DNA of 64,000 bases from Janthinobacterium sp. GW456P (GTDB lineage: Bacteria > Pseudomonadota > Gammaproteobacteria > Burkholderiales > Burkholderiaceae_D). The first letter of the stretch is position 1. Each line of letters opens with the position of its first letter. Shown one piece after another: positions 29,946 to 59,244 of the stretch. The position numbers and the translations under genes are program-made. The notes below the pieces were generated by a model. The model saw only the letters and a program-made list of their open reading frames with translations, did not search any database and had not been told where the DNA came from. The stretch lies in assembly GCF_002127655.1 (NCBI RefSeq), contig NZ_NEHB01000016.1:1-64000 (forward strand), read 5' to 3'.

Positions 29946-30977
29946 TTACCCTTGCTTTTCCTGCGCCACGATGGCCATCGCCGCGCCCAGGTACTGCAGC
30001 ATGGCGGCATCGACAAAGCTGCCTTCCATCAAACGCGGTTCCTGCTGATGCGCCTGGCGGAATTTCAGCTGCGTGGCCGGGTTGTTGCCCGCATACGCGC
30101 GGAACAGTTCCAGCCACTGCCGCGCCAGCTGCAGCACGGCCGGGTCGGTGGGCGGCGTGCGCGCATCGATGGCGGCGCGCACGGCGGCGATCAGGGCCGG
30201 CCACTCGCCCGAACGCTTGCCGTAGTTGGCCACCAGGTGCGCGTATTCCTGCTCGTCGAGGAATGGCTTGTACAGCGCCATGCGCGAGGCATTGAAAGCC
30301 CCCAGGATGAACCGCATCAAGTCCGCATCGACGCTGGTGGCGTGCTGCATGGAAGGCTCCTGCGCATGCATGTTGTTCAGCCGCGCGAACAGGCCCGGAT
30401 GGGCGCCCGTGTCGCGCACCAGCTTGACCATCCATTCCGTGGCCAGGGCCTGCGCCCGCGCATCATCGGGCGTAGCGCCCGTCCCCTGCAGCGCGCGCAC
30501 TCGGGCGACAAGCGCCTTCCATTCCTGTTCCACGGCCGCATCGGATAGCAGCGGCAGCTGTTGCAGTTCTTCGGCACTAAAGTATTTGTCGTACATGGTC
30601 ATCAACTCCATAGTGGTGAGCCACTCGGTCAGTTCCGGCGCCTGTCCTTGTCCCAGTTGCGCCTGCAAGCCTTGCAGGCGCACACGCAGGGTGGAAGCTT
30701 GCGCGATCTGATGGTCCAGCATGGCGATCTGCCGGGCCACGATGGCGCTCAAGGGCAGGTCCGGGCCGGCGAGGGCGTTGGCGATATCGGCCAGCGACAG
30801 CCCGAACTTGCGCAGCGCCATGATCCGGTGCAGCCGGTCCATGTCGCCGTGCTGGTACAGGCGGTAGCCAGCTTGCGTGCGCCCCGAAGGCGAGAGCAGG
30901 CCGATGCTGTCGTAGTGGTGCAGGGTGCGGATGGTCAGGCCCGTGAGCCTGGCCAGTTCACCGATTTTCAACAGCAT
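29946..30977 (-). CDS. MerR family regulator with TipAS-type domain
   Basis: 343 residues. Start ATG 30977 set by AAGGAG. MerR wHTH (IGELARLTGLTIRTLHHYDSIGLLSPSGRTQAGYRLY), coiled-coil dimer helix, and a C-terminal helical part with TipAS-like sequence (MYDKYFSAEELQQLPLLSDAAVEQEW). The C-terminal half seems to carry a second, duplicated TipAS-like module. TipA-class regulators bind hydrophobic or peptide antibiotics. The promoter has the classic 19-bp MerR spacer with a dyad, so the gene is probably autoregulated. Divergent from the sugar locus. Confidence 0.88.
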   Translation of the reverse strand: MLLKIGELARLTGLTIRTLHHYDSIGLLSPSGRTQAGYRLYQHGDMDRLHRIMALRKFGLSLADIANALAGPDLPLSAIVARQIAMLDHQIAQASTLRVRLQGLQAQLGQGQAPELTEWLTTMELMTMYDKYFSAEELQQLPLLSDAAVEQEWKALVARVRALQGTGATPDDARAQALATEWMVKLVRDTGAHPGLFARLNNMHAQEPSMQHATSVDADLMRFILGAFNASRMALYKPFLDEQEYAHLVANYGKRSGEWPALIAAVRAAIDARTPPTDPAVLQLARQWLELFRAYAGNNPATQLKFRQAHQQEPRLMEGSFVDAAMLQYLGAAMAIVAQEKQG

Positions 30978-31008
30978 CGTCTTCTCCTTGTCTTCAGTGC
31001 GTGCTACC

Positions 31009-31039
31009 ACGATGACGCCTGACGCCACGTCAGGGTCAA
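31009..31039 (-). promoter_or_regulatory. MerR-type promoter/operator of the TipAS regulator
   Basis: On the minus strand TTGACC (31039-31034), a 19-bp spacer holding the dyad CTGACG-TGG-CGTCAG, and CATCGT (31014-31009). An overlong 19-bp spacer filled by an inverted repeat is the hallmark of MerR-activated promoters. It lies about 30 bases before the regulator's ATG. Confidence 0.65.
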
Positions 31040-31084
31040 GCAGGAATGTAGCAGAGAGCCCAAAAAAAACCGAAAAAGAATCCG

Positions 31085-31113
31085 TTGACCTTCATTTTTT
31101 TGTACGGTATATT
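31085..31113 (+). promoter_or_regulatory. Sigma-70 promoter P1 upstream of sugar locus
   Basis: TTGACC (31085-31090), 17-bp spacer, TATATT (31108-31113). The -10 region contains TTTGTACGGTATATTTATAA, which resembles a second box at P2. The first gene begins 200 bases further on, so P1 would make a long leader. Confidence 0.55.
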
Positions 31114-31224
31114 TATAAAACCGAATCATGATTTCAGTAAAAGAAACAGCTTCGGGCCAGGCGGCATGACGGCATGCTCGTTGTGCGGCGCAGCAAGAAG
31201 CGCCACTGGCAGGGCTGGAAAGAC

Positions 31225-31247
31225 AATCCGCGCAGACGGATTTTTTT
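31225..31247 (+). terminator. Weak terminator-like hairpin in the leader
   Basis: AATCCG-CGCAGA-CGGATT stem-loop followed by T7, about 105 bases downstream of the presumed P1 start. It would end a roughly 125-nt RNA or act as an attenuator. The 6-bp stem is weak and the T run also forms part of the P2 -35 region. Confidence 0.35.
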
Positions 31248-31275
31248 CACAGTTGGTTTGTACGTTAAATATAAT
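31246..31275 (+). promoter_or_regulatory. Sigma-70 promoter P2 of sugar locus
   Basis: TTCACA (31246-31251), 18-bp spacer, TATAAT (31270-31275), 39 bases before the first ATG. TTTGTACGTTAAATATAATA overlaps the -10 and resembles the P1 box, suggesting that one regulator (the locus GntR protein is the obvious candidate) acts on both. Confidence 0.6.
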
Positions 31276-31313
31276 ATGCCGTCTGGAAGATCCGGGCGGC
31301 GAGAGAGACGACC

Positions 31314-32327
31314 ATGATGAAAAGTATCGTTTGCGATACGCCCGGCAGTTTGCGCATGGAGCAGCGCCCCGTGCCCGTGCCCGCCGAGGGCGAAGTGCTG
31401 CTGCGCATACGCCGCGTCGGCATCTGCGGCACCGACATGCATATCTTCCGTGGCACCCAGCCTTTCCTCAGCTATCCGCGCGTGATGGGGCATGAATTGT
31501 CCGGCCATATCCACAGCGCGCCGGCCGGCTCGCGCCTGGCCGTGGGCGACCAGGTCTACGTCATGCCCTACCTGTCGTGCGGTACTTGCGTGGCCTGCCG
31601 CCAGGGCAAGACCAACTGCTGCACCCGCATCGAAGTGCTGGGCGTGCACCGCGACGGCGGCATGAGCGAATACCTGGCGTTGCCCGAGCGCTTTGTCTTC
31701 AAGACGGAAGGCATCTCGCTCGACGACGCGGCCATGATCGAATTTCTCGCCATCGGCGCGCATGCCGTCAAGCGCGGCGCGGTGGACGCCGGCAAGCGCG
31801 TGCTGGTGGTGGGCGCCGGCCCGATCGGCATGGCCGTGATGCTGTTCGCATCGTTGAAAGGCGCCGACGTGACGGTGCTCGATGGCCGCGCCGACCGCCT
31901 GCGGTTCTGCCGTGACGCGCTGGGCATCGCCCGCACGGTGCCGCTGGGCGAGGGCGACCAGCAGCAGCTGTCGGATGCCACCGGCGGCGAATTCTTCGAC
32001 GTGGTGTTTGACGCCACCGGCAACATCGCCGCCATGGAGCGGGGCCTGGACTTTGTCGCCCACGGCGGCTCCTATGTGCTGGTGTCGATCGTGCGCGACC
32101 GCCTGTCGTTCTCCGATCCTGAATTCCACAAGCGCGAAACCACCTTGCTGGGCAGCCGCAATGCCACCGTCGACGATTTCGAGGACGTGGTGGCGGCCAT
32201 GAAGGCGGGGAAAGTCCCCACCGCGCTGCTCAATACCCACCGCACCACGCTCGACGAATTTACCGGCGTGCTCGATCGCTGGATGCAGCCCGAGGCGGGT
32301 GTCATCAAGGCCATCGTCGAGGTCTGA
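31314..32327 (+). CDS. Zinc-dependent alcohol/sugar-acid dehydrogenase (L-galactonate/L-idonate 5-dehydrogenase type)
   Basis: 337 residues, medium-chain dehydrogenase. Catalytic-zinc residues in GICGTDMH and GHELSGH; structural-zinc Cys set in CGTCVACRQGKTNCC; NAD-binding VLVVGAGPIGMAVML. Relatives oxidise C5 of sugar acids (L-galactonate to D-tagaturonate, L-idonate to 5-ketogluconate). The UxaB-like and UxaA-like genes that follow would complete such a route to 2-keto-3-deoxygluconate. First gene of the locus. Specificity is inferred from context, not sequence. Confidence 0.85.
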   Translation: MMKSIVCDTPGSLRMEQRPVPVPAEGEVLLRIRRVGICGTDMHIFRGTQPFLSYPRVMGHELSGHIHSAPAGSRLAVGDQVYVMPYLSCGTCVACRQGKTNCCTRIEVLGVHRDGGMSEYLALPERFVFKTEGISLDDAAMIEFLAIGAHAVKRGAVDAGKRVLVVGAGPIGMAVMLFASLKGADVTVLDGRADRLRFCRDALGIARTVPLGEGDQQQLSDATGGEFFDVVFDATGNIAAMERGLDFVAHGGSYVLVSIVRDRLSFSDPEFHKRETTLLGSRNATVDDFEDVVAAMKAGKVPTALLNTHRTTLDEFTGVLDRWMQPEAGVIKAIVEV

Positions 32328-32328
32328 G

Positions 32329-33465
32329 ATGCGCGATCTCAACCCCATACTGCAATTTGGCACCAGCCGCTTCCTGCAGGCGCACGCCGACCTGTTCGTC
32401 AGCGAGGCGGCCGAGGCAGGCCAGGCGCTGGGGCAGATCACCATCGTGCAAACGACCGGCAGCGCGCAGGGCGCGGCGAGGGTGGCGGCGTTTCGCCAGC
32501 CCGGCGGCTATCCCGTGCGCATCCGCGGCTGGCAGGACGGCGCGCAAGTCGATGACGAGCGCCGCGCCCACGCCGTCACGCAAGCGTGGCAGGCGGGCAG
32601 CGACTGGCCGCAGGTGCGCGATGCGGCGGTGGCCGCGCGCGTGATCGTCTCGAATACGGGCGACACGGGCTACCAGCTCGATGCATCCGACCACGCCGGC
32701 ATGCTCGACGGCGATACCGTTCCCGCCAGCTTTCCCGCCAAGCTGCTGGTGCTGCTGCACGGCCGCTTCCTGGCCTGCGCCGCGCCCCTCTCGATTTTTC
32801 CGTGCGAACTGGTGGCCGACAACGGTCATGTACTGCGCCAGGTGATCGTCGCATTGGCGCGGCACTGGCATTGCGATGCCGCCTTCATCGGCTACCTGGA
32901 AACGGGCTGCCTGTGGATCAATTCCCTCGTCGACCGCATCGTTTCCGAGCCGATCGAACCGGTCGGCGCCGTGGCCGAGCCCTATGCGCTGTGGGCCATC
33001 GAGGCGCAGGAAGGCATGCTGCTGCCGTGCCGCCATCCGCAGCTGGTGGTCACAAACAGCCTGCGCGAGTATGAACAGCGCAAGCTGTTTTTGCTCAACC
33101 TCGGTCACACGTATCTGGCGCAGCTATGGATGGAACGGGGCAGCCCGGCCGGCATGACGGTGCGCGAGGCGATGGACGATGGCGCCATGCGCGCCGCGCT
33201 GGAAGCCTTGTGGCGCGAGGAAGTGCTGCCCGTGTTTGCCGCCATGGGCGCGCAGCACGGCGACGCCGCGCTGGCCTACGTGGCGCAGGTCAGGGAACGC
33301 TTTTGCAATCCCTTTCTTGCGCACCGCCTGGCCGACATCGCCCAGCACCACGCCGGCAAGATCGCGCGCCGCATGGCGCCCGTGGCGGCGCTGGCGCGGC
33401 AGCTCTGTCCCGCGCTGGCGCAGCCGCGTTTGCGCGCCATGCTGGCGGCGGGAGCGCAGCCATGA
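32329..33465 (+). CDS. Mannitol dehydrogenase family oxidoreductase (UxaB/tagaturonate-reductase type)
   Basis: 378 residues; ATG one base after the preceding stop codon, so coupled. N-terminal NAD-binding start LQFGTSRFLQAHADLF is that of uronate/polyol long-chain dehydrogenases. The catalytic Lys-x5... motif is REYEQRKLFLLNLGHT. Relatives interconvert D-tagaturonate and D-altronate, D-fructuronate and D-mannonate, or mannitol and fructose. Slightly shorter than E. coli UxaB (483), like other compact members. In this setting tagaturonate (or 6-deoxy analogue) reduction is most likely. Confidence 0.82.
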   Translation: MRDLNPILQFGTSRFLQAHADLFVSEAAEAGQALGQITIVQTTGSAQGAARVAAFRQPGGYPVRIRGWQDGAQVDDERRAHAVTQAWQAGSDWPQVRDAAVAARVIVSNTGDTGYQLDASDHAGMLDGDTVPASFPAKLLVLLHGRFLACAAPLSIFPCELVADNGHVLRQVIVALARHWHCDAAFIGYLETGCLWINSLVDRIVSEPIEPVGAVAEPYALWAIEAQEGMLLPCRHPQLVVTNSLREYEQRKLFLLNLGHTYLAQLWMERGSPAGMTVREAMDDGAMRAALEALWREEVLPVFAAMGAQHGDAALAYVAQVRERFCNPFLAHRLADIAQHHAGKIARRMAPVAALARQLCPALAQPRLRAMLAAGAQP

Positions 33466-33579
33466 AGGCCCCCGTCACCGCAGTTGTTTCTTTTTCGGCA
33501 TGCCGATCCAATCCGATATCGACTAAAATGGCCCACTCATCCACTTTCCCTTTCGCTGGCATAGCGCGTTCATTCCTCC

Positions 33580-34497
33580 ATGTCCAAACCCGCCACCGTC
33601 TTCAAGCGCAGTACCAATCTGCTGTTGCAATTTCTCGCCGAGAATGTCGCAGTGGGCGAGATGCTGCCGACGGAGCAGTTCCTGACCACCATCTGCCAGG
33701 GCAGCCGCACGGCCATCCGCAGCGCGATCGCTTACCTGTCGACGCGGCGGCTGATCGCCAGCCCGGCGGACCGGCGTCTGCTGCGCAAACCCATACCGGG
33801 CGACTACTTCGACATCTCCGAATTGCAGTCGGGGGCCGAGCGTATCCAGCAGGTGCTGATGGAGCGCGTGTATCAGCGCGACATGCCGCCCGGCGCGGAA
33901 TTTTCGGAAGCGGAGCTGGCGCGCGAGGCGGGCGCCAGTACCGTCAGCGTGCGCGAATTTCTGATCGGTTTTTCGCGCTTCGGCCTGATCGAAAAGAAAC
34001 CGCGCGGCGGCTGGCGCCTGTGCGCGTTCGATCGCTCGTTCGCCACCGAACTGGCGGACATGCGGCGCATGTTCGAGATGGCGGCCGTGGAGCAGTTTGC
34101 GCACCTGCCGCATGGCGATCCGGCGTATGCGGAACTGGCGCGCCTGATCAAACAGCACGAGAAGCTGGCGGCCAGGATAGCTACGCGCCACAATGCGTTT
34201 CCGGCGCTGGACCGCGAGTTCCACACCTTTCTGATCGGCCTCTTGAACAACCGCTTCGCGCAGGGCTTCTACGATATCGTCTCGTTTGTCTTCCACTATC
34301 ATTACCAGTGGGACAAGGGCGAGGAAAAGGGCCGCAACCAGTACGCGGTGCAGGAGCATCTGGCGATCCTGCATGCGCTGGCGGAACACGACATACCGAA
34401 GGCGCTCGAGGCCATGCGTTCGCACCTCGATTCCTCGCGCCGCACCATGCTGTCGTCGATCGGCACGCGCGAAAAACTGAGCCAGCCGACCGTCTAG
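33580..34497 (+). CDS. GntR family regulator with two wHTH domains and FCD domain
   Basis: 305 residues, longer than a usual FadR-subfamily regulator (about 240). Residues 8-70 already look like a GntR wHTH (LLLQFLAENVAVGEMLPTEQ; SRTAIRSAIAYLSTRRLI). Residues about 87-150 form a second one (RIQQVLMERVYQRDMPPGAEF; STVSVREFLIGFSRFGLIEK). The FCD effector domain follows (MRRMFEMAAVEQFA; ALDREFHTFLIGLLNNRF), with the His/Asp metal and acid-binding pattern. It sits inside the sugar locus and is its obvious local regulator. A 114-base gap before it could hold its own promoter. Confidence 0.85.
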   Translation: MSKPATVFKRSTNLLLQFLAENVAVGEMLPTEQFLTTICQGSRTAIRSAIAYLSTRRLIASPADRRLLRKPIPGDYFDISELQSGAERIQQVLMERVYQRDMPPGAEFSEAELAREAGASTVSVREFLIGFSRFGLIEKKPRGGWRLCAFDRSFATELADMRRMFEMAAVEQFAHLPHGDPAYAELARLIKQHEKLAARIATRHNAFPALDREFHTFLIGLLNNRFAQGFYDIVSFVFHYHYQWDKGEEKGRNQYAVQEHLAILHALAEHDIPKALEAMRSHLDSSRRTMLSSIGTREKLSQPTV

Positions 34498-34522
34498 CCG
34501 TCATTGCCGGGGAGGGTGCGCC

Positions 34523-34858
34523 ATGAGCCTCGCTTCCCGGCCTGCCAGCCTGCTGCTGATGTCGCCCGAGGATAACTGCCTGATCGCCAGGACGGCCTTG
34601 GCCAGCGGCGAGATCGTCGCCATCGACGGCTTGCCCGTCACCCTGGCGCAAGACATCCAGATCGGCCACAAGGTGGCGCGCCGCGCGCTGGCCGTGGGCG
34701 ACAAGGTGCTGCGCTACGGCGCCCTGATCGGCAGCATCACGGCTCCCGTCGCCATCGGCGAGCATATCCACACGCACAACCTGGCAAGCGACTACATCCC
34801 CACGTTTACCCTGGGCCAGGACGGCCACCATTTCCTGCACAAGGACGATCAAGCATGA
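34523..34858 (+). CDS. UxaA-type hydro-lyase, small SAF-domain subunit
   Basis: 111 residues equal to the N-terminal SAF domain of altronate/galactarate dehydratases: ARTALASGEIVAIDGL, IQIGHKVARRALAVGDKVLRYG, IGSITAPVAIGEHIHTHNL. In E. coli UxaA this domain is fused to the catalytic part; here it is a separate gene whose stop overlaps the start of the large subunit by 4 bases. The pair should form one Fe2+-dependent sugar-acid dehydratase. Confidence 0.88.
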   Translation: MSLASRPASLLLMSPEDNCLIARTALASGEIVAIDGLPVTLAQDIQIGHKVARRALAVGDKVLRYGALIGSITAPVAIGEHIHTHNLASDYIPTFTLGQDGHHFLHKDDQA

Positions 34859-36084
34859 ACGCTCCCGCAACGACACCGGCCCCGGTCCTCTCGGGCTACC
34901 TGCGCGCCGATGGCCGCAAGGGCATCCGCAATATCGTGGTGGTGGCCTATATGGTCGAATGCGCGCACCATGTGGCGCGCCTGATGGTCAACGCCTTTCC
35001 CGGCCAGCCCGTGCACCTGATCGGCTTTACAGGCTGCTTCCCCAACGAATACGCGGACCAGGTGATGCGCCGCCTGCTGACGCACCCGAACGTGGGCGCC
35101 GTGCTGCTCGTCTCCCTGGGCTGCGAAGGCTTCAATAAATATGGCTTGTCCAGCGCCGTGGCCGACAGCGACCGTCCCGTGCACACGATCACCATCCAGG
35201 AAAACAGCGGCACGCGCCCCAGCGTGAGCAGCGGCGTCGAATGGATAGGCTGGGCTCTCGATCACCTGGCGCGCCAGGAGCGCGTGCCGATGGGCATCGA
35301 TGAACTCGTCGTCGCCACTATCTGCGGCGGCTCCGACAGCACCAGCGGCATCAGCGCCAACCCGGCCGTCGGTGTCGCCTTCGATACCCTGATCGCGGCC
35401 GGCAGCCCGTGCATCTTCGAAGAGACGGGAGAACTGGTGGGCTGCGAATACCACATGCAGCGGCGCGCCGTCAGCCCGGACCTGGGTAACGCCATCGTCG
35501 AAACCGTGGCCAAGGCCGCGCGCTACTACACCATCATGGGCCATGGCAGCTTCTCGCCGGGGAACGCCGATGGCGGCCTGACCACGCAGGAAGAAAAGTC
35601 GCTGGGCGCCTATGCCAAGAGCGGTTCCTCACCCATCGTCGGCATTTTGAAACCGGGCGACCAGCCTGCCGGCGGCGGCCTGTACCTGCTCGACGTGGTG
35701 CCGGACGGCGAGCCGCGTTTCGGTTTCCCGAACGTGTCGGACAACGCGGAAATCGTCGAACTCATTTCCTGCGGCGCCCACATCACCCTGTTTACTACCG
35801 GACGCGGCTCCGTGGTGGGATCGGCGATTTCGCCCGTCATCAAGGTGTGCGCCAATCCGCAAACCTTCGAGCGCCTGGCCGACGACATGGATATCAACGC
35901 CGGCAAGATCCTCACGGGCGAAGCCAGCCTGGAAGAGGTGGGCGCGGAGATCGTCGCCGCCGTGCTGAACGTGGCCAATGGAGAACCGAGCCGCTCGGAA
36001 GACCTGGGCCACCAGGAGTTCGTGCTGACCTATAAACAATTCGACGCGGTGGGGCCAGGCTGCTTCCCCTTGCGCGCTGCCTGA
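34855..36084 (+). CDS. UxaA-type hydro-lyase, large catalytic subunit
   Basis: 409 residues. GYLRADGRKGIRN at the start, FTGCFPNEYADQVMRRLL, LVSLGCEGFN, ICGGSDSTSGISANPAVG, and a C-terminal FTTGRGSVVGSAISPVIKVC are those of the altronate/galactarate dehydratase C-terminal domain, including Cys residues expected to bind iron. The reaction is loss of water from C2-C3 of an aldonate to a 2-keto-3-deoxy acid. Within this locus it is the only dehydratase, so it must serve whichever aldonate the pathway makes. Confidence 0.88.
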   Translation: MNAPATTPAPVLSGYLRADGRKGIRNIVVVAYMVECAHHVARLMVNAFPGQPVHLIGFTGCFPNEYADQVMRRLLTHPNVGAVLLVSLGCEGFNKYGLSSAVADSDRPVHTITIQENSGTRPSVSSGVEWIGWALDHLARQERVPMGIDELVVATICGGSDSTSGISANPAVGVAFDTLIAAGSPCIFEETGELVGCEYHMQRRAVSPDLGNAIVETVAKAARYYTIMGHGSFSPGNADGGLTTQEEKSLGAYAKSGSSPIVGILKPGDQPAGGGLYLLDVVPDGEPRFGFPNVSDNAEIVELISCGAHITLFTTGRGSVVGSAISPVIKVCANPQTFERLADDMDINAGKILTGEASLEEVGAEIVAAVLNVANGEPSRSEDLGHQEFVLTYKQFDAVGPGCFPLRAA

Positions 36085-36095
36085 GGACCGGCTTC

Positions 36096-37112
36096 ATGGA
36101 TGTCACACAATTGCGTAGCTTGCCGCGTGGCGGCCTGTCGCTGCCCTGCATCGGCATGGGCTGCGCGCCGCTGGGCGGCCTGTACCAGCCGGTCAGCGAT
36201 GCGCAGGCGCGCGCCACCCTCGATGGCGCCTGGGACGCCGGCGTGCGCTTCTTCGACACGGCGCCGTTCTATGGCTATACCCAGTCCGAACACCGCCTCG
36301 GCGCGGCGCTGCGCGAGCGGCCCCGCGATCATGTTGTCGTCAGCACCAAGGCGGGACGGCTGATGCGGCCCGACGCCTGCGTGCGTCCCGGCGACGACGG
36401 CTTTGCCGCGCCGCTGCCGTTCCGCCCCCATTACGATTACACGTATGACGGCGTGCTGCGTTCGCACGACGACAGCCTGCAGCGCCTGGGGCTCGAGCGC
36501 ATCGATATCCTGTTCGTGCACGACATCGGCAAGGCCACGCATGGCGAACGCGAGCAGCACTACTGGCGCCAGCTGACCGAGGGCGGCGGCTTTCGTGCCC
36601 TTGATGAACTGCGCGCCGGCGGCCAGGTGAAGGCCGTGGGCCTGGGCGTCAACGAATGCGAGGTCGTGCTGCGGGCGATGGCGGAATTCGACCTCGATTG
36701 CACCCTGCTGGCCGGCCGCTACACCTTGCTGGAGCAGGCTTCGCTGTCGCCATTGCTGGACCTGTGCGTGGAACGCGGCAACGCCATCGTGATCGGCGGT
36801 CCGTTCAACTCGGGCGTGCTGGCGGGGAACGGCAAATTCAATTACGCCGATGCGCCGGCCGCGATACTCGAGCGCGTGGCGCGCCTGGACGCCATCTGCC
36901 GCGCATTCAACGTGCCGCTGCAGGCCGCCGCCCTGCAGTTTCCGCTCGCCCATCCGGCCGTCGTTTCCTGCATCCCGGGCGGCCAGGACCTGGCGCAGCT
37001 GCGCCAAAACCTCGACTGGTTCGCCACGCCCTTGCCGCACGCCTTGTGGACAGCCTTGCAGGAAGCTGGCCTGATCGATGCGCGCGCACCAGTGCCCAGG
37101 GGAGCCGGATGA
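36096..37112 (+). CDS. Aldo/keto reductase, probable L-fucose/L-galactose 1-dehydrogenase
   Basis: 338 residues, AKR barrel: LPCIGMGCAPLGGLYQPVSD, FFDTAPFYGYTQSEHRLGAAL with the catalytic Tyr, and VVSTKAGRL with the catalytic Lys. The sequence type is that of D-threo-aldose (L-fucose/L-galactose) 1-dehydrogenases, which oxidise the sugar to the 1,5- or 1,4-lactone. It starts 11 bases after the dehydratase and its stop overlaps the lactonase gene, matching sequential steps. Confidence 0.85.
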   Translation: MDVTQLRSLPRGGLSLPCIGMGCAPLGGLYQPVSDAQARATLDGAWDAGVRFFDTAPFYGYTQSEHRLGAALRERPRDHVVVSTKAGRLMRPDACVRPGDDGFAAPLPFRPHYDYTYDGVLRSHDDSLQRLGLERIDILFVHDIGKATHGEREQHYWRQLTEGGGFRALDELRAGGQVKAVGLGVNECEVVLRAMAEFDLDCTLLAGRYTLLEQASLSPLLDLCVERGNAIVIGGPFNSGVLAGNGKFNYADAPAAILERVARLDAICRAFNVPLQAAALQFPLAHPAVVSCIPGGQDLAQLRQNLDWFATPLPHALWTALQEAGLIDARAPVPRGAG

Positions 37113-37951
37113 TGCGCATCGACGCCCACCAGCACTGCTGGCAACTGGCCGCGCGCGGCGGCAGCTGGCCGCCGCCGTCCCTGGCCGCCATCCACCGCGA
37201 TTTTGCGCCCGCCGACCTGGCGCCCCTGCTGGCCGCGCACGGCATCGCCGGCACGGTGCTGGTGCAGTCGCTGCCGTCGTCTGCCGATACCGATTACCTG
37301 CTGGCGCTGGCGGAAAACACCAGCTTTATCCGCGCCGTCGTGGGCTGGACCGATTTGCTGGCCGAAGACGCGCCGGCGGCGATTGCCCGCCTGGCGTCGC
37401 ACGGCAAGCTCAAAGGCCTGCGCCCGATGCTGCAGGACCTCGACGACGATCAATGGATCGCCAACCCGGCGCTGGCGCCAGCCCTGGCCGCCATGGTGGA
37501 ACGCGGCCTGCGTCTGGACGCGCTGGTGCTGCCGCGCCACCTGCCCGCGCTGCTGCATTGCGCGCGCGCCTGTCCGCTGCTCCCCATCGTGATCGACCAT
37601 GCGGCCAAGCCGCCGATCGCCGAAGCTGAATTTGGCCGCTGGCGCGAAGACATGGCGCAGCTGGCCAGGCTGCCGAACGTGCACTGCAAGCTGTCCGGGC
37701 TGGTGACGGAAGCGCGGTCCGGCTGGCACGTGGATGATTTGCGGCCGTATGTGGCGCATGTGCTGGAAGTTTTTGGAGCCCAGCGCGTGATCTGGGGCAG
37801 CGACTGGCCGGTAGTCGACCTGGCCGGCGGCTATGCGGCCTGGCTGGCCGCCAGCGAGGCGCTGCTGGCGCATCTCGATCAGCAGGACAGGGACGATATT
37901 TTTGGCCTCAATGCACTGCGTTTTTACGGCCTCAATCAGGAAACGCCATGA
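37109..37951 (+). CDS. Amidohydrolase, probable L-fuconolactonase-type lactonase
   Basis: 280 residues of amidohydrolase_2 type: MRIDAHQHCWQ, with HxH metal ligands; PIVIDHAAKPPI; NVHCKLSGL; and VIWGSDWPV with the catalytic Asp. COG3618 members hydrolyse sugar lactones such as L-fuconolactone and L-rhamnonolactone. It begins inside the stop codon of the aldo/keto reductase gene, so the product of one enzyme is the substrate of the next. Two ATG codons are adjacent at the start; either may be used. Confidence 0.85.
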   Translation: MMRIDAHQHCWQLAARGGSWPPPSLAAIHRDFAPADLAPLLAAHGIAGTVLVQSLPSSADTDYLLALAENTSFIRAVVGWTDLLAEDAPAAIARLASHGKLKGLRPMLQDLDDDQWIANPALAPALAAMVERGLRLDALVLPRHLPALLHCARACPLLPIVIDHAAKPPIAEAEFGRWREDMAQLARLPNVHCKLSGLVTEARSGWHVDDLRPYVAHVLEVFGAQRVIWGSDWPVVDLAGGYAAWLAASEALLAHLDQQDRDDIFGLNALRFYGLNQETP

Positions 37952-38277
37952 AGAGAATGGGCATGGTCATCGGCATCGCGCCGGACCGCATCGCGGAATA
38001 CAAAAACCTGCACGCCGCCGTCTGGCCGCAGGTGCTGGCCAAGCTGACGGCGGCGCATGTCAGCAATTATTCGATCTTTTTGCGCGAACCGGAAAACCTG
38101 CTGTTCGGTTACTGGGAATACCACGGCAGGGATTTCGCGGCCGACATGGCGGCCATCGCCGCCGACCCGGAAACGCAGCGCTGGTGGACCTTTTGCGCCC
38201 CCTGCCAGCTGCCGCTGGCCTCGCGCGCCGAGGGCGAGCACTGGGCGATGATGGAACACGTATTTCATATGGCTTAG
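37948..38277 (+). CDS. L-rhamnose mutarotase family protein (L-fucose/L-rhamnose mutarotase)
   Basis: 109 residues, ferredoxin-like fold. GMVIGIAPDRIAEYKNLHAAVWPQVLA contains the His/Trp pair of the family; NYSIFLREPENLLFGYWEYHG and WWTFCAPCQLPL complete it. COG3254 enzymes speed anomer exchange of L-rhamnose-like sugars so that dehydrogenase gets the right anomer. Start overlaps the lactonase stop (ATGA). Confidence 0.85.
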   Translation: MKRMGMVIGIAPDRIAEYKNLHAAVWPQVLAKLTAAHVSNYSIFLREPENLLFGYWEYHGRDFAADMAAIAADPETQRWWTFCAPCQLPLASRAEGEHWAMMEHVFHMA

Positions 38278-38296
38278 GCCTAAAAGAGGAGACAAC

Positions 38297-39052
38297 ATGA
38301 CCGCCAGACTACAAGGAAAAATCGCCCTGCTCACCGCCGCCGGCCAGGGCATTGGCCGCGCCACGGCCGAAGCCTTCGTGCGAGAAGGCGCCACCGTGAT
38401 CGCCACCGATATCAACCAGGCCCAGCTCGACGCGCTGAAGGAAGCGACGGGTTGCGCCATCCGCCGGCTCGATGTGACCGATGGCGCGGCGATCACCGCG
38501 CTGGCAGGCGAGATCGGCCCCGTCGATATCCTGTTCAACTGCGCCGGCTTCGTCGACGGCGGCACCATCCTCGACTGCGACGATGCGGCCTGGGACCGCT
38601 CCTTCGACATCAACGCGCGCTCCATGTACCGGCTGATGCGCGCCGTGCTGCCCGGCATGCTGGCCAGGGGCGCCGGCTCCATCGTCAATATGTCGTCGGT
38701 GGCATCGAGCGTGAAGGGTGCGCCGAACCGCTTTATCTACGGCACCTCGAAGGCGGCCGTGGTGGGCATGACCAAGTCGGTGGCGGCGGACTTCGTCACG
38801 CGCGGCATCCGCTGCAATGCGATCTGCCCCGGCACCATCGAATCGCCTTCGCTGAAGGAACGCATTGCCGCGCAGGCGGCAGCGACGGGAGTGAGCATCG
38901 ATGAAGTGCAGGCGGCGTTTGTCGCACGCCAGCCGATGGGACGAGTGGGCAGGGCAGAGGAAATCGCCGCCCTGGCCGTGTATCTGGCTTCCGACGAATC
39001 GGCTTTTACCACCGGTATGGTCCACGTGATCGATGGCGGCTGGTCAAATTAA
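38297..39052 (+). CDS. SDR oxidoreductase, probable 2-keto-3-deoxy-L-fuconate dehydrogenase
   Basis: 251 residues, classical SDR: LTAAGQGIGRATAEAF (TGxxxGxG variant), NCAG, catalytic Ser in NMSSVAS and YxxxK in YGTSKAAVVG, CPGTIESPSL. Its closest known type is 2-keto-3-deoxy-L-fuconate 4-dehydrogenase, which makes 2,4-diketo-3-deoxy-L-fuconate. The next gene encodes the hydrolase that cleaves such a diketone, which supports the call. Confidence 0.82.
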   Translation: MTARLQGKIALLTAAGQGIGRATAEAFVREGATVIATDINQAQLDALKEATGCAIRRLDVTDGAAITALAGEIGPVDILFNCAGFVDGGTILDCDDAAWDRSFDINARSMYRLMRAVLPGMLARGAGSIVNMSSVASSVKGAPNRFIYGTSKAAVVGMTKSVAADFVTRGIRCNAICPGTIESPSLKERIAAQAAATGVSIDEVQAAFVARQPMGRVGRAEEIAALAVYLASDESAFTTGMVHVIDGGWSN

Positions 39053-39073
39053 TTACAACAACGAGAGACACAC

Positions 39074-39940
39074 ATGAAACTGATGCGGTATGGCGCCAAG
39101 GGCGCTGAAAAACCTGCCTTGATCGATGCCGACGGCGCCGTGCGCGACCTGTCCGGCGTGCTGCCCGATATTACGGCCGCGACCCTGGGCAAGGATGGCC
39201 TGGCAAACCTGGCCGCCGTCGATATCGCCAGCCTGCCGCTGGTGGCCAACCCTGGCCGCATCGCGCCGCCGTGGCAGGGCGTGGGCAAGTTTTTATGCGT
39301 GGGCCTGAACTATGCCGACCATGCGGCCGAATCGGGCATGGCCGTGCCGGTTGAGCCGGTGCTGTTCATGAAGGCCACCAGCGCCATCATCGGCGCCAAC
39401 GACGCCGTCGTGCTGCCGCAGGATTCGCAGAAAAGCGACTGGGAAGTCGAGCTGGGCGTGGTGATCGGCACCACCGCGCGCTATGTGAGCGAAGCGGAGG
39501 CGCTGTCGCACGTGGCCGGCTACTGCGTGGTGAACGATTTGTCCGAACGCGAATACCAATTGGAGCGCGGCGGCCAGTGGGACAAGGGCAAGGGCTGCGA
39601 TACCTTCGGCCCCATCGGCCCCTGGCTGGTGACCAGCGACGAAGTGGCGGACCCGCAAAACCTGGGCCTGTGGCTGGAAGTGAACGGCAAGCGCGTCCAG
39701 GACGGCAATACCCAAACGATGGTCTTCGGCGTGGCGAACCTGGTTAGCTACATCAGCCGTTTCATGACCTTGTACCCGGGCGACATCATCAGCACCGGCA
39801 CGCCGCCGGGCGTGGGCATGGGGCAGAAACCGTCGGCCGTGTATTTGAAGCCGGGCGACACCATGCGCCTGGGGATCGAAGGCCTCGGCGAACAGCGGCA
39901 GACCGTGCATGCGTGGAATCCGCAGCTGATCGACAGTTAA
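39074..39940 (+). CDS. Fumarylacetoacetate hydrolase family protein, probable 2,4-diketo-3-deoxy-L-fuconate hydrolase
   Basis: 288 residues. KFLCVGLNYADHAAESGM, SDWEVELGVVIG with acidic metal ligands, and STGTPPGVGMGQKPSAVYL are FAH-family motifs. This group splits 2,4-diketo-3-deoxy acids into pyruvate and a hydroxy acid (L-lactate from the fuconate compound). Placement after the SDR matches the last step of the non-phosphorylative L-fucose or L-rhamnose route. Upstream gap 21 bases. Confidence 0.85.
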   Translation: MKLMRYGAKGAEKPALIDADGAVRDLSGVLPDITAATLGKDGLANLAAVDIASLPLVANPGRIAPPWQGVGKFLCVGLNYADHAAESGMAVPVEPVLFMKATSAIIGANDAVVLPQDSQKSDWEVELGVVIGTTARYVSEAEALSHVAGYCVVNDLSEREYQLERGGQWDKGKGCDTFGPIGPWLVTSDEVADPQNLGLWLEVNGKRVQDGNTQTMVFGVANLVSYISRFMTLYPGDIISTGTPPGVGMGQKPSAVYLKPGDTMRLGIEGLGEQRQTVHAWNPQLIDS

Positions 39941-40021
39941 TACGGCAGCAGACCGGCGTGCCGCCAAGGTGCTCAGACATCGGCGCGCCGGCCTATGGCA
40001 GTGGAGTGGAGGAGACACACC

Positions 40022-41554
40022 ATGAATCAATCCGAAGAGATACTGGCGCTGCACAAGGTCAGCAAGCGCTTTCCCGGCGTGCTGGCGCTCGACAACGTCA
40101 GTTTCAGCCTGCGCAAGGGCGAGGCCCATGCGCTGTGCGGCGAAAACGGCGCAGGCAAGTCCACCCTGATGAAGGTGATGAGCGGCGTGTACCAGGCCGA
40201 CGAGGGGGAACTGGTCTACAAGGGCAAGGTGTGCAGCTTTGCCAGCAGCGTGGAGGCGGAGGCGGCCGGCATCGCCATCATCCACCAGGAACTGAATTTG
40301 ATCCCGCACCTGAGCGTGGCGGAGAATATTTTCCTGGCGCGCGAACCGGTGCGCGGCATTTTTATCGACCGCAAGAAAATGCGTGCCGATGCGCAGGCGC
40401 TGCTGGACCGGCTAAAACTGCGTATCGACCCGCGCCAGCTGGTGAAAAACCTGTCCTGCGCGCAGCAGCAGATGGTGGAAATCGCCAAGGCGCTGTCACT
40501 CAATACCGAGGTGCTGATCATGGACGAGCCCACGTCCTCGCTGACGGAAAGCGAGACGGGCCAGCTATTCGACATCATCAATGAACTCAAGCGCAACGGC
40601 GTGAGCGTGGTCTACATCTCGCACCGGCTCGAAGAAATGCAGCACATCATCGACCGGGTGACGGTGCTGCGCGACGGCAAATTCGTCTGCACCGACGATT
40701 TTGCCGCCACCACCCTCGATGCCATCGTGGCCAGGATGGTGGGCCGTACCCTCGATGAAAAATTTCCCGACCGCGTCTCGACGCCGACGGCCGAAGTGCT
40801 GCTGCGCGTGAGCGATTTGCACCGCAAGGATGTCTTCGGCCCGCTGAGCTTTGATTTGCGGCGCGGCGAGATCCTCGGCTTTTCCGGCCTGATGGGCGCG
40901 GGGCGCACGGAAGTGGCGCGCGCCATCTTCGGCGCCGATCCGCTCACCGGCGGCGCCATCCACCTGGGCGACGTGGCGGTGACGATAGGCAGCCCCATCG
41001 ACGCCATCGGACACGGTATCGCCTACCTGTCGGAAGACCGCAAGAGCCATGGACTGGCGATCCGCATGTCGGTGGCGGCCAACCTGACCCTGACGAATGT
41101 CTCGGCGCTGGCCAACCGCTTCGGCTTCATCGATTTCGCCAGGGAAGAGGCGGTGGCGCAGCAGTACATCGCGGCGCTGGGCATCAAGACGCCGACCTCG
41201 AAACAGATCGCGCGCAACCTCTCGGGCGGCAACCAGCAAAAGATCGTCATCAGCAAATGGCTGTACCGCGATTCGAAAATCATCTTCTTCGACGAACCCA
41301 CGCGCGGCATCGACGTGGGGGCCAAGTTCGCCATCTACCAGCTGCTCGACAAGCTCGCGTCTGAAGGCATCGGCGTGGTGCTGATCACGTCAGAACTGCC
41401 CGAGATCATGGGCATGACGGACCGGGTGGCCGTATTCCATGAAGGGCGCATCAGCGGCATCGTCAATACGCGCGAGTCGTCGCAGGAAGAGATCATGCAG
41501 CTGGCGTCGGGGCGCGCAGCCAGTCCCGCCACTGGCCAGGCGGCAGTCCATTAA
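40022..41554 (+). CDS. Sugar ABC transporter, ATP-binding protein (RbsA type)
   Basis: 510 residues, two fused ATPase domains. First: Walker A GENGAGKST, signature LSCAQQQMVEIAKAL, Walker B VLIMDEPTSSL. Second: degenerate Walker A GLMGAGRTEVARA, signature LSGGNQQKIVISKWL, FFDEPTRGIDVGAK. This is the ribose/xylose/galactose importer class. GGAGGAG precedes the ATG. Followed by the permease and binding protein, so a complete importer for the locus substrate. Confidence 0.93.
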   Translation: MNQSEEILALHKVSKRFPGVLALDNVSFSLRKGEAHALCGENGAGKSTLMKVMSGVYQADEGELVYKGKVCSFASSVEAEAAGIAIIHQELNLIPHLSVAENIFLAREPVRGIFIDRKKMRADAQALLDRLKLRIDPRQLVKNLSCAQQQMVEIAKALSLNTEVLIMDEPTSSLTESETGQLFDIINELKRNGVSVVYISHRLEEMQHIIDRVTVLRDGKFVCTDDFAATTLDAIVARMVGRTLDEKFPDRVSTPTAEVLLRVSDLHRKDVFGPLSFDLRRGEILGFSGLMGAGRTEVARAIFGADPLTGGAIHLGDVAVTIGSPIDAIGHGIAYLSEDRKSHGLAIRMSVAANLTLTNVSALANRFGFIDFAREEAVAQQYIAALGIKTPTSKQIARNLSGGNQQKIVISKWLYRDSKIIFFDEPTRGIDVGAKFAIYQLLDKLASEGIGVVLITSELPEIMGMTDRVAVFHEGRISGIVNTRESSQEEIMQLASGRAASPATGQAAVH

Positions 41555-41573
41555 AAACAGAAAGCTTAAAAAA

Positions 41574-42548
41574 ATGAACAAAGAACTGATCCAAAAATTC
41601 GCCGCGCTGGGCAGCCTGTCGCTGTTGCTGCTGGTGTTTTCCCTGACCAGCAATGCCTTTTTCTCCGTCAGCAATGGCATGAGCGTGGCCTTGCAGGTGA
41701 CGTCGATCGCCTACCTGGGCATCGCCGCCACCTGCGTCATCATCACGGGCGGCATCGACCTCAGTTCCGGCTCCGTGCTGGCGCTGGCCGGCGTGGCCGC
41801 CGCGCTGCTGGTGAAAAGCGGCGTGCCCGTGCCGGTCGCCATGCTGGGCGGCATCGTGGTGGGCGCCATGTGCGGCGCCGTCAACGGCTTTTGCATCACG
41901 CAATTGAAACTGCCGCCCTTCATCGCCACCCTGGGCATGATGCTGATTGCGCGCGGCCTGGCGCTGCAGGTGACGGGCGCGCGTGCCATTTCCGGCCTGG
42001 GCGAGTCGTTCGGCGAACTCGGTAATGGCGTGTTGTGGCGCATCGAGCGCGACACGGGCGGCACCTTTCCCGAAGTCGTTTTCCCCGGCATTCCGTATCC
42101 GGTGGTGCTGATGGTGGTGATCGCCGTGGCCGTCTCCATCATGCTCAGCCGCACCACCTTTGGCCGGCATATCTATGCCGTCGGTTCGAATGCGGAAGCG
42201 GCGCGTTTGTCCGGCGTGAAGGTGGGCCGCGTGACCCTGCTGGTGTACACCCTGTCCGGCGCCTTGTCGGGCCTGACGGGCTGCGTGCTGATGTCGCGCC
42301 TGGTGACGGCGCAGCCGAACGAGGGCGTGATGTACGAACTCGATGCGATCGCCAGCGCCGTGATCGGCGGCGCCTCGCTGATCGGCGGCATCGGCACCAT
42401 CTCCGGCACCGTCATCGGTTCCTTCGTCATCGGCATCCTGCGCAACGGCTTGAACATGAACGGGGTATCGAGCTTTATCCAGCAAATCATTATCGGACTG
42501 GTCATCTTGCTGACCGTCTGGATCGATCAGAAGCGCAACCGCGCCTGA
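41574..42548 (+). CDS. Sugar ABC transporter, permease (RbsC type)
   Basis: 324 residues, about 9-10 membrane helices. SIAYLGIAATCVIITGGIDLSSGSVLALAG is the BPD_transp_2 family signature, and GAVNGFCITQLKLPPFIATLGMM and AVGSNAEAARLSGVKV are typical of ribose-class permeases. Forms the membrane channel of the importer with the preceding ATPase. Confidence 0.92.
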   Translation: MNKELIQKFAALGSLSLLLLVFSLTSNAFFSVSNGMSVALQVTSIAYLGIAATCVIITGGIDLSSGSVLALAGVAAALLVKSGVPVPVAMLGGIVVGAMCGAVNGFCITQLKLPPFIATLGMMLIARGLALQVTGARAISGLGESFGELGNGVLWRIERDTGGTFPEVVFPGIPYPVVLMVVIAVAVSIMLSRTTFGRHIYAVGSNAEAARLSGVKVGRVTLLVYTLSGALSGLTGCVLMSRLVTAQPNEGVMYELDAIASAVIGGASLIGGIGTISGTVIGSFVIGILRNGLNMNGVSSFIQQIIIGLVILLTVWIDQKRNRA

Positions 42549-42607
42549 AGCAGCAAGCAGCACGCATGAAGTCAATCTATTAAATCTATAATTACATGAG
42601 GACGACA

Positions 42608-43570
42608 ATGAAAACCTTCAAAGCCTTCAACACCGTTTTGCTCGGTCTGTTGACCGCAGCATTTGCCCTGAGCGCCAGCGCCGCCTTTGCCGCCCAGGGC
42701 GAGATCGCCGTGATCGTCAAGACGACCAATTCCAACTACTGGCAAAACGTGAAAAAGGGCGCCACGGCCAGCGCCGCCGACGCCAAGGGCTACAGCCTGA
42801 CCTTCCAGGGACCGGCCTCGGAATCGGCCATCGCCGACCAGGTCAGCATGGTGGAAAACGCCGTCACGCGCAAGGTGGCCGGCATCGTGCTGGCCGCGTC
42901 GGACCCGGACGCGCTGGTGCCGGCCCTGAAGAAAGCGTGGGAAGCGAAGATTCCCGTGGTGCTGATCGATTCGCTGGTGGCCGACAGCGGCAAGCGCTAT
43001 TACCAGTCCTTCCTGTCGACCGATAACGAAGCGGCCGGCGAAGCCAGCGCCAAGGCCCTCATTTCGCAGGTCGGCAAGACGGGCAAGATCGCCGTGATGT
43101 CGTACGTGGCGGGCGCCGGTTCCGAGACGGGCAGGGTGGGCGGCTTCAAGCGTTACATCGAGAAGAACTCGCAGCTGCAGATCGTCGGCACTTATTATTC
43201 GCAGTCGCAGATGGCCACGGCGCTGAACCAGACGACCGACGTGCTGGCGTCGAATCCCGACTTGAAGGGCATCTTCGGCGCCAATGAACCGACGGCCGTG
43301 GGCATGGGCCGCGCCATCGCGCAGGCGGGCAAGGCCGGCAAGGTGATCGCCGTGGGCTTCGACGGCAATGAAGACCTGAAAAATTTCGTCAAGGACGGCA
43401 CCTTGTACGCGACCGCCGTGCAGGGTTCCTACTCGATGGGCGCGCTGGGCGTGAAAACCCTCGTCAGCCTGATCGAAGGCAAGAAGGTCGCGCCCTTCGT
43501 CAACACGGGCGTGGTGATCGTCACCAAGGCCAATGTCGACCAGCCGGAAGCGAAGAACGTGCTGTATTAA
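42608..43570 (+). CDS. Sugar ABC transporter, substrate-binding protein
   Basis: 320 residues. Signal peptide (about 1-30, LLGLLTAAFALSASAAFAAQ). Type I periplasmic binding fold: EIAVIVKTTNSNYWQNVKKG, QVSMVENAVTRKVAGIVLAAS, GFDGNEDLKNFVKDG. Ribose-class ligand-binding Asp/Asn/Arg positions are present in general form but sugar identity cannot be read. Last gene of the locus; converges on a LysR gene with only 3 bases between stops. Confidence 0.92.
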   Translation: MKTFKAFNTVLLGLLTAAFALSASAAFAAQGEIAVIVKTTNSNYWQNVKKGATASAADAKGYSLTFQGPASESAIADQVSMVENAVTRKVAGIVLAASDPDALVPALKKAWEAKIPVVLIDSLVADSGKRYYQSFLSTDNEAAGEASAKALISQVGKTGKIAVMSYVAGAGSETGRVGGFKRYIEKNSQLQIVGTYYSQSQMATALNQTTDVLASNPDLKGIFGANEPTAVGMGRAIAQAGKAGKVIAVGFDGNEDLKNFVKDGTLYATAVQGSYSMGALGVKTLVSLIEGKKVAPFVNTGVVIVTKANVDQPEAKNVLY

Positions 43571-43573
43571 TTT

Positions 43574-44470
43574 TCAGATCGTCAGGCGCTGCTTCAATTC
43601 CTTGAGCAGCGTGCCGGTCCTGGCGGTCAGCTGGCGCGCCAGCGGCCAGGCCAGCGACAGCGGCAAGCCTGGCGTGGCGCAGGCGGGCAATACTTCGACG
43701 ATGGCGCCGCTGGCCAGGTGCTCGTGCACCAGCCAGGTCGCCTGCTGCGCGATGCCCAGGCCGGCCAGCACGGCGGCCGTCTGCGCCTCGGCGTCCCCCA
43801 CCGTCAGGCGTGGCTGGGCCGCGCGCCGTTCCACTCCATCCTCGCCTGCAAACAGCCACGGCGCCGCCGTGCCGTCGCCCCGCCCGTAGGCGATGCAGTC
43901 GTGGGCATCGAGATCGGCGATGGCGACCGGCGTGCCGCGCCGCGCGAGGTAGGCGGGCGCCGCGCAAAAGATCAGGCGCTCTTCGCCCAGATGCAGTTGC
44001 CCCAGCGCTTGCGATCCGCTGCCCGGCGCGCCGATGCGCACGGCGATATCGATGCGCTCCTCGAACAGGTCGGCAAAGCGGTCGCTGAAGGCGATCGACG
44101 GCTGCAGCTGCGGATATTTTTCACACAGATCGATCAGCGCCGGCATCACGCGCATGCGGCCATACGAAGCGGGTACGCCGATGCGCACCTTGCCTGCCAG
44201 TTCCCCTTCCTGCTCGGCCAGCACGTTTTCCGCATCGACCAGTTCCTGCAGCACGCGCTTGCAGGTGGCGTAATAGGCATGCCCCGCACTGCTCAACTGT
44301 AAACGCCGCGTGCTGCGCTCGAACAGGATCACGCCCAGGCGCGCTTCCAGGCGCGCCACGCTCTTGCTCACGGCCGAGCTGCTCAGGTGCAGTTTCTCGG
44401 CCGCCCGGGTGAAACTGCCGGCCTCGGCGGTGGCAAGAAACGGCGCGATGCCTTTCAAATGGTCGGACAT
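43574..44470 (-). CDS. LysR family transcriptional regulator
   Basis: 298 residues. wHTH (FLATAEAGSFTRAAEKLHLSSSAVSKSVARLEARLG), then a substrate-binding domain (VRIGVPASYGRMRVMPALIDLC). It is of the CrgA/DsdC-like group that controls adjacent oxidoreductases. Divergent from the SDR gene with 99 bases between start codons, which it probably regulates. Confidence 0.9.
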   Translation of the reverse strand: MSDHLKGIAPFLATAEAGSFTRAAEKLHLSSSAVSKSVARLEARLGVILFERSTRRLQLSSAGHAYYATCKRVLQELVDAENVLAEQEGELAGKVRIGVPASYGRMRVMPALIDLCEKYPQLQPSIAFSDRFADLFEERIDIAVRIGAPGSGSQALGQLHLGEERLIFCAAPAYLARRGTPVAIADLDAHDCIAYGRGDGTAAPWLFAGEDGVERRAAQPRLTVGDAEAQTAAVLAGLGIAQQATWLVHEHLASGAIVEVLPACATPGLPLSLAWPLARQLTARTGTLLKELKQRLTI

Positions 44471-44569
44471 GATTTGAGAATATTTTTCATGAATAAGGTG
44501 AAATACTATCGCGGATAAGAATTTCAGTCCGCTATATCATGGTTTTTTTACACAGCGATTGGAGTACCC

Positions 44570-51809: not shown

Positions 51810-52262
51810 ATGAGTGAACACGCAAGTTGGGGTACCCTGGAGCGCGCGATTGAGATTGCCGCCGCCACCCATGCCGGCCAGACGGACAAGGGCGGCGCGC
51901 CGTACATTTTGCACCCTTTGCGCGTGATGCTGCGCGTCGCCGCCGGTGTCCAGCAGATCGTCGCCGTGCTGCATGATGTGGTGGAAGACAGCGACGGCAA
52001 AGTCACTTTCGACGACCTGGCGCGTGAAGGGTTTTCCCGGGAAGTGATCGATGGCGTGCGCGCCGTGACCAAGATCGAAGGCGAGTTGTATGAAGATTTC
52101 ATCGCCCGCGCGGCCTTGAACCAGGTCGGCAAGGCCGTCAAGCTGGCTGATCTGGCTGAGAATAGCGATCTGTCGAGGATAGGGGAGCCGACGCAGAAGG
52201 ATATGGAGAGGATAGAGAAGTATCGGCGGGCGATCGGGTATTTGCGGGGGGATGGTTCTTAA
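51810..52262 (+). CDS. HD-domain small alarmone hydrolase-like protein
   Basis: 150 residues; ATG 51810 set by AAGGAG. The RelA/SpoT hydrolase-type HD fold is alone, with no synthetase, TGS or ACT domain. Motif residues: H21 (ATHAGQ), H35 (YILHPLRVM), H55-D56 and E59-D60 (LHDVVEDS). The last helices hold KLADLAENSD. This is the MESH1-like small alarmone hydrolase layout that degrades (p)ppGpp, although related HD hydrolases act on other nucleotides. Confidence 0.85.
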   Translation: MSEHASWGTLERAIEIAAATHAGQTDKGGAPYILHPLRVMLRVAAGVQQIVAVLHDVVEDSDGKVTFDDLAREGFSREVIDGVRAVTKIEGELYEDFIARAALNQVGKAVKLADLAENSDLSRIGEPTQKDMERIEKYRRAIGYLRGDGS

Positions 52263-53006: not shown

Positions 53007-53019
53007 CGGAGCAGATGAT

Positions 53020-53768: not shown

Positions 53769-53787
53769 TCGCAGTTTTGATTCCTGA

Positions 53788-59237: not shown

Positions 59238-59244
59238 TTTTTCC

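Follow-up and report, generated by a model that had tools for sequence, protein, structure and literature searches.

A Janthinobacterium locus that may join L-fucose and L-galactose catabolism around one two-part dehydratase

Why should a single run of genes carry enzymes of two sugar-acid routes and one dehydratase only? The question is raised by a locus of Janthinobacterium sp. GW456P (assembly GCF_002127655.1) found at 31314-43570 on the + strand of the window, which is the whole stretch of 64,000 nucleotides that was analysed (contig NZ_NEHB01000016.1, positions 1 to 64,000). Thirteen co-directional genes, each an open reading frame, extend there over 12.3 kb in the order zinc-dependent dehydrogenase (ADH), compact UxaB, GntR/FCD regulator, SAF, GD_AH, aldo/keto reductase, lactonase, mutarotase, short-chain dehydrogenase/reductase (SDR), FAH hydrolase, and the ATPase, permease and binding protein of an ATP-binding cassette (ABC) importer, separated by 4-bp overlaps or gaps of 1-54 bp except for 114 bp ahead of the GntR gene. 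The genes listed as co-directional in an earlier, sequence-only reading are all real, lie on the + strand and belong to the families named there, but the GntR/FCD regulator had been overlooked (Table 1). The split UxaA dehydratase of that reading was correctly recognised, with SAF (111 aa) and GD_AH (409 aa) encoded by two overlapping genes.

We consider it quite likely that the locus is one operon for the import and catabolism of both L-fucose and L-galactose, with the early steps in common and one two-part dehydratase for both. A dual role for these sugars had been proposed before, and it stands as the best fit. The substrate of every enzyme and the double duty of the dehydratase are what we infer. 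Both sugars would be imported by the ABC system, mutarotated and oxidised by the aldo/keto reductase, and the lactones would be hydrolysed. L-Fuconate would then be dehydrated to L-2-keto-3-deoxyfuconate (L-KDF) by the two-subunit UxaA-family enzyme, after which the SDR would oxidise L-KDF at C4 and the FAH hydrolase would split the product into pyruvate and L-lactate. For L-galactonate the route would start with epimerisation at C5, the ADH producing D-tagaturonate and compact UxaB D-altronate, which the same split dehydratase would convert into D-2-keto-3-deoxygluconate (D-KDG). Finally, D-KDG would yield pyruvate and D-glycerate via the SDR and the FAH hydrolase, or would be handed over to a KDG kinase and a 2-keto-3-deoxy-6-phosphogluconate (KDPG) aldolase encoded elsewhere. 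With somewhat more reserve, we also favour a particular history, in which a heteromeric L-fuconate dehydratase took over the dehydration of D-altronate and became the sole dehydratase of two merged routes, and in which the adjacent compact tagaturonate reductase has been swapped with the UxaB of the hexuronate pathway across species.

The arrangement is not a matter of chance, since the gene order is identical in the 15 same-genus loci fetched (12 genes being visible in five of them, whose stretch stops before the binding protein) and the pairwise ratio of nonsynonymous to synonymous substitutions (dN/dS) against four genus loci is below 0.5 for 12 genes, all but that of the binding protein. 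Among 33 related loci fetched from the family, 27 combine ADH and compact UxaB with the split dehydratase; the rest have a single-chain dehydratase (2 loci, L124 and L125) or none within the stretch (4 loci, L113, L119, L120 and L126, of which L119 is a short contig). The closest named relatives of the compact UxaB, among the matches listed, are those of four other Janthinobacterium loci (L127-L130), 78-92% identical.

Several enzymes point to L-fucose. The mutarotase matches the L-fucose mutarotase 7byu with 197 bits, versus at most 41 bits for YiiL and L-rhamnose mutarotases. An L-rhamnose route was considered and rejected, the mutarotase being of the L-fucose kind. In the PDB, the SDR is closest to 8y11 (365 bits), named through PMC11199699 as the L-KDF 4-dehydrogenase of Herbaspirillum huttiense, and the FAH hydrolase to L-2,4-diketo-3-deoxyrhamnonate hydrolase (8gsr, 373 bits). 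The equivalents of the type-1 L-KDF 4-dehydrogenase motif (Arg148, Thr183, Arg192 and Arg214, plus Trp252) are all there in the SDR, whose substrate-binding residues are thereby conserved; this Trp is tied to L-KDF in PMC11199699. All five PDB matches of the aldo/keto reductase at E up to 1e-15 are L-galactose dehydrogenases. As for the dehydratase, A19U_RS0100650/655 of Paraburkholderia mimosarum NBRC 106338 have been assigned, on the basis of gene context, the role of a heteromeric L-fuconate dehydratase, within a cluster induced by L-fucose only that belongs to route III of the non-phosphorylating L-fucose pathway (PMC6336799). Locus L225 of that strain, presumably the same cluster, contains SAF, GD_AH, aldo/keto reductase, lactonase, SDR and FAH hydrolase genes in the order seen here, and its GD_AH is 68% identical to that of the window. 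The enolase-type L-fuconate dehydratase FucD, said earlier to be missing, was not found in a search of the whole genome either, in which three MR_MLE_C matches were examined. One of these is a relative of Bll6730 (672 bits versus 57 for FucD); the other two look, by eye, like a muconate-cycloisomerase-type protein and a phosphopyruvate hydratase.

For the L-galactose branch, the protein of most interest is the compact UxaB. It matches positions 18-374 of the 482-position NF002969 profile (205 bits versus a cut-off of 359) and therefore is without the C-terminal part. Judged by its sequences it is a natural subfamily, separate from classical UxaB and with open relatives at 53-93% identity, and it may work like UxaB. 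The possibility of a frameshifted UxaB was rejected, the compact relatives being open. Residues K252, N257 and H260, which we assume to be the catalytic motif, are invariant in six aligned sequences. Of 392 genomes of the family, 34 have a relative above 400 bits, as do 7 of 399 genomes of the order, GW456P being counted in both. A scan of named genomes rendered 579 candidate stretches, the best 80 of which were analysed as loci; within the stretch, 44 of these 80 have a single-chain dehydratase, 12 a split one, 24 none and none both kinds. An FAH hydrolase is present in 18 of the 80, among them 12/12 of the split loci and 5/44 of the single-chain ones. An SDR like L-KDF 4-dehydrogenase occurs in five of the 12 split loci and in five of the 44 single-chain loci, the latter being the same five that have the hydrolase, and the remaining split loci have an SDR of about 40% identity. 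A parallel combination of both routes, having a single-chain UxaA with that type of SDR and an FAH hydrolase, was observed in Ralstonia (L143, L176, L179 and L200) and Elstera (L194). In P. mimosarum, a locus separate from the fucose cluster (L196) comprises an importer, aldo/keto reductase, ADH, compact UxaB and single-chain UxaA.

Trees were made from 112 of 125 dehydratase matches, 115 of 123 UxaB matches and 92 of 101 ADH matches, after removal of eight records of genomes already used and of fragments or low-coverage matches; the rows of L029, L030 and L084 and the second copy in L124 were also left out of the dehydratase tree. In the ADH and UxaB trees, the second with low support in parts, merged-locus members fall together; a few dehydratase-less loci are placed among them, and L079 branches immediately beside the group. 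Among the dehydratases, the 32 merged-locus enzymes form one clade (support 0.998); they represent 31 genomes, as the duplicate pairs L118/L137, L119/L133 and L120/L138 were kept in. The neighbours of this clade are all of the fucose type: L054 and L055 (0.997), L226 (0.986) and then L225, L057 and L058 (0.786). The group labelled as fucose-locus has eight rows, two of which (L056 and L059) lack other fucose genes in their stretch, and with these two included the support of the dehydratase group is 0.968. Single-chain dehydratases of galactose-type loci make up a separate clade. By this tree, the split dehydratase descends from enzymes of fucose-type loci and not from the single-chain enzymes of galactose-type loci. 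The simplest history would be one merger in the family, in which the single-chain dehydratase disappeared and both acids came to depend on the fucose-type enzyme.

The GD_AH protein is the only PF04295 match in its genome, and 11 of the 15 genus relatives with a merged locus likewise have a single GD_AH protein. Carbons C2-C4 of L-fuconate are the same as those of D-arabinonate, and this also holds for D-altronate and L-galactonate. For the latter two acids the identity is noted in PMC6336799, where one UxaA-family relative is reported to use D-altronate, L-fuconate and L-galactonate at 12%, 5.6% and 2.4%, respectively, of its rate with D-arabinonate, which makes promiscuity of the dehydratase plausible. 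The same paper describes the four conserved cysteines of the UxaA/GarD superfamily as iron-binding; here, at least 98% of the 112 sequences share cysteines 36, 61, 90 and 157 of GD_AH. Another set of split SAF and GD_AH dehydratases, 57-66% identical to that of the window and forming a clade of its own (0.977), was observed in L060-L073 and L083, in whose stretches close homologues of the other locus genes were not found; an MR_MLE (enolase-superfamily) gene lies directly upstream of the dehydratase in two of three such loci examined (L060 and L068, not L071). In L100 (G598) the GD_AH gene reads in two pieces near the 3' end, through either a sequencing error or a genuine break.

The distribution of the two kinds of UxaB bears on the nature of the intermediate. 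The split dehydratase was detected in 44 of the 392 family genomes. In 28 of these, the window included, the locus carries both ADH and compact UxaB; in 12 it carries ADH without compact UxaB (L230, L231 and L234-L243), and compact UxaB was not found elsewhere in those 12 genomes. A classical UxaB that passes the NF002969 cut-off occurs in 12/12 of the genomes without the compact form versus 4/28 of those with it (Fisher p = 3e-7, a value that ignores descent), and in the 12 its gene always adjoins a GD_AH (UxaA-family) gene elsewhere in the genome. None of the 40 ADH-bearing split-dehydratase genomes is without both reductases, which fits D-tagaturonate as the product of ADH and fits a 6-deoxy alternative poorly. 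This complementarity is suggestive of D-tagaturonate as an intermediate and supports the galactonate branch. In one of the genus genomes, G607, which is nested within the genus (0.979), the gap 3' of ADH starts with the first six bases of UxaB. The zinc-dehydrogenase gene of L234 (G721) reads in two pieces.

It could also be the case, although we regard it as unlikely, that the split enzyme dehydrates L-galactonate directly to L-2-keto-3-deoxygalactonate, which the SDR and the FAH hydrolase would turn into pyruvate and L-glycerate, so that ADH and UxaB would serve an imported acid such as D-altronate or D-tagaturonate. The H. huttiense homologue of the SDR acts on L-2-keto-3-deoxygalactonate with 19% of its L-KDF efficiency (PMC11199699, its Table 1), and the rate of the UxaA-family relative with L-galactonate given above is in agreement with such a step. 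However, many compact-UxaB loci have ADH, importer, aldo/keto reductase and lactonase with no SDR or FAH hydrolase found in the stretch, and ADH without compact UxaB occurs, in the 44 genomes, only alongside a classical tagaturonate reductase. Still less probable is an L-fucose/D-arabinose operon with ADH and UxaB as decaying passengers. The large subunit of the dehydratase and the permease are indeed better conserved than compact UxaB, which has been lost at least once in the genus, and an aldo/keto reductase of P. mimosarum accepts D-arabinose and L-fucose alike (PMC6336799); but the pairwise dN/dS of compact UxaB against the four genus loci (0.20-0.24) is within the range of the lactonase (0.23-0.30) and the aldo/keto reductase (0.15-0.21), and in 27 of the 33 family loci fetched ADH and UxaB have stayed with the split dehydratase. 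A single route in which L-fuconate is epimerised at C5 via 6-deoxy-D-tagaturonate and 6-deoxy-D-altronate, ending in D-lactate, is hardly credible, being compatible with the gene content alone, with all genes in one co-directional run, but at odds with the lack of ADH or UxaB in the stretches of the split-dehydratase fucose-type loci L054, L055, L057, L058, L225 and L226, with the seeming ability of classical UxaB to stand in for the compact form and with the L-KDF-type motif of the SDR.

Returning to an operon for both sugars, D-KDG would have two possible fates. The kinase and aldolase expected elsewhere by the sequence-only reading have counterparts in the genome, namely a KDG-kinase-like protein at C11:56792-57694, whose top match is a structure named only PfkB (376 bits; 150 bits with the KDG kinase 1v19), and two KDPG-aldolase-family proteins. 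The kinase would not be strictly required, though, because the SDR and FAH hydrolase could themselves take D-KDG, the H. huttiense SDR homologue having about 1% efficiency with it (75 versus 7900 per min per mM for L-KDF; PMC11199699, its Table 1). From this analysis, D-KDG may or may not flow through the local pair.

A number of observations weigh against our interpretation. With D-KDG, the efficiency of that same SDR homologue is 105-fold lower than with L-KDF (PMC11199699). In the 112-sequence alignment, no residue of the merged-locus dehydratases has moved from the fucose-group to the single-chain state, and double duty would therefore rest on promiscuity and not on visible adaptation. The Fisher value overstates the case, since a single genus supplies 10 of the 12 genomes that lack compact UxaB, so that only about three events can be seen; loss of compact UxaB is demonstrated for G607 only. 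Four of the 44 genomes do not belong to either class. In G568 and G731, ADH was not found within the fetched stretch; in G519, compact UxaB has no ADH next to it and the dehydratase is far away; and G650 has ADH-UxaB with a single-chain dehydratase, its split one being elsewhere. Moreover, the genome of GW456P has a second UxaB-family protein (C5:237140, 140 bits, under the cut-off), and ADH, UxaB, the lactonase and the FAH hydrolase each score too low for the curated cut-off of the family that they are most like.

The individual reactions are already proposed or shown in other bacteria. The L-fucose pathway of Xanthomonas campestris has the same intermediates and the same final SDR and FAH steps (PMC11199699 and PMC13406643) but uses the enolase-superfamily FucD. 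Unlike the locus described here, the fetched stretch of the P. mimosarum cluster L225 rendered no homologues of ADH, compact UxaB, mutarotase or importer. In the loci compared, ADH and compact UxaB usually accompany a single-chain UxaA, whereas here they accompany the split kind. An L-galactose route through D-altronate is reportedly that of Acidovorax avenae (ACAV_RS08155). In Luteolibacter, lguABCDEF encode a route from L-galactonate by way of D-tagaturonate and D-altronate; by its description this set resembles the present locus in that a dehydrogenase for L-galactonate, a tagaturonate reductase and a dehydratase of the UxaA family act in series (PMC12632266). What looks new is that two modules, apart elsewhere, are merged round a single dehydratase with an inferred double duty, one for L-fucose (split dehydratase, SDR and FAH hydrolase) and one for L-galactonate (ADH and compact UxaB); in the open-licence PMC papers searched, neither this architecture with its dehydratase double duty nor a paper on Janthinobacterium with both sugars was found.

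Table 1. Genes and upstream elements of the locus, in window positions.
Feature	Position	Strand	Basis
Promoter-like P1 with TTTGTACG box at ~31099	31085..31113	+	consensus scan; both hexamers and box invariant in 9 aligned loci
Terminator-like hairpin with T-run, between P1 and P2	31225..31248	+	stem and T-run kept in 9 aligned loci
Promoter-like P2 with second TTTGTACG box at ~31257	31246..31275	+	second hexamer and TTGTACG invariant in 9 aligned loci
Zn-dependent dehydrogenase, probable L-galactonate 5-dehydrogenase	31314..32327	+	PF08240/PF00107; NF007489 198.5 bits, cut-off 376 not reached; top PDB match RspB 4ilk
Compact UxaB-like dehydrogenase, 378 aa, probable D-tagaturonate reductase	32329..33465	+	NF002969 205 bits, cut-off 359 not reached; complementarity with classical UxaB
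GntR/FCD transcriptional regulator	33580..34497	+	PF00392, PF07729; same position in 15/15 genus loci fetched
Dehydratase small subunit, SAF domain, 111 aa	34523..34858	+	PF08666
Dehydratase large subunit GD_AH, 409 aa, probable L-fuconate and D-altronate dehydratase	34855..36084	+	PF04295, PF20629; tree
Aldo/keto reductase, probable L-fucose/L-galactose 1-dehydrogenase	36096..37112	+	PF00248; PDB matches
Amidohydrolase (cog3618-type), probable L-fucono/L-galactono-lactonase	37109..37951	+	NF052480 209 bits, cut-off 400 not reached; 4dlf 130 bits
L-fucose mutarotase, RhaM fold	37948..38277	+	7byu 197 bits
SDR, probable L-2-keto-3-deoxyfuconate 4-dehydrogenase	38297..39052	+	8y11 365 bits; type-1 motif
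FAH hydrolase, probable 2,4-diketo-3-deoxy acid hydrolase	39074..39940	+	8gsr 373 bits; NF053535 467.8 bits, cut-off 500 not reached
Sugar ABC importer ATPase	39995..41554 (start possibly ~40022)	+	PF00005 in two stretches
Sugar ABC importer permease	41574..42548 (start from open reading frame; searches used 41577 on)	+	PF02653
Periplasmic sugar-binding protein	42596..43570	+	PF13407

The upstream elements were aligned in nine loci, the window and 8 of the 15 genus loci; in P2 one of them, L104, differs in the first hexamer and in the leading T of the box. The promoters are supported mainly by their conservation, because the consensus scan found two promoter-like sites versus a mean of 2.5 in shuffles; terminator-like sites in the region were 19 versus a mean of 11.5. 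The hairpin may act as an attenuator or mark where a short leader RNA ends, and no Rfam match was obtained within 30900-44700 at E up to 0.5. The P2 box is a weak candidate for the operator of the GntR regulator. In L109 the motif TTGTACG stands 5' of the gene for the mutarotase, and L112 and L114 have it between SAF and ADH; it was not found in L110, L117, L121 and L079, for which reason the operator idea stays weak.

Relatives of the binding protein, at 68-75% identity, are found in one fucose-type locus (L054) and in galactose-type loci (L077-L079). The merged locus L112 has no ABC importer in its stretch, and an MFS transporter, a GH97 glycoside hydrolase and a tryptophan-halogenase-family gene lie nearby, hinting at a polysaccharide-linked version. 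Outside the locus, window positions 52001-60000 have a G+C content of 0.49-0.53 versus 0.63-0.67 across the locus and are possibly an acquired region.

This analysis proposes a function for the compact UxaB subfamily, represented by 579 candidate stretches in named genomes, of which the best 80 were kept. If the proposed pathway is true, the locus would let one read how the promiscuity of an enzyme allows two catabolic routes to merge, in that a dehydratase indifferent to C5 would make a second, specialised dehydratase dispensable.

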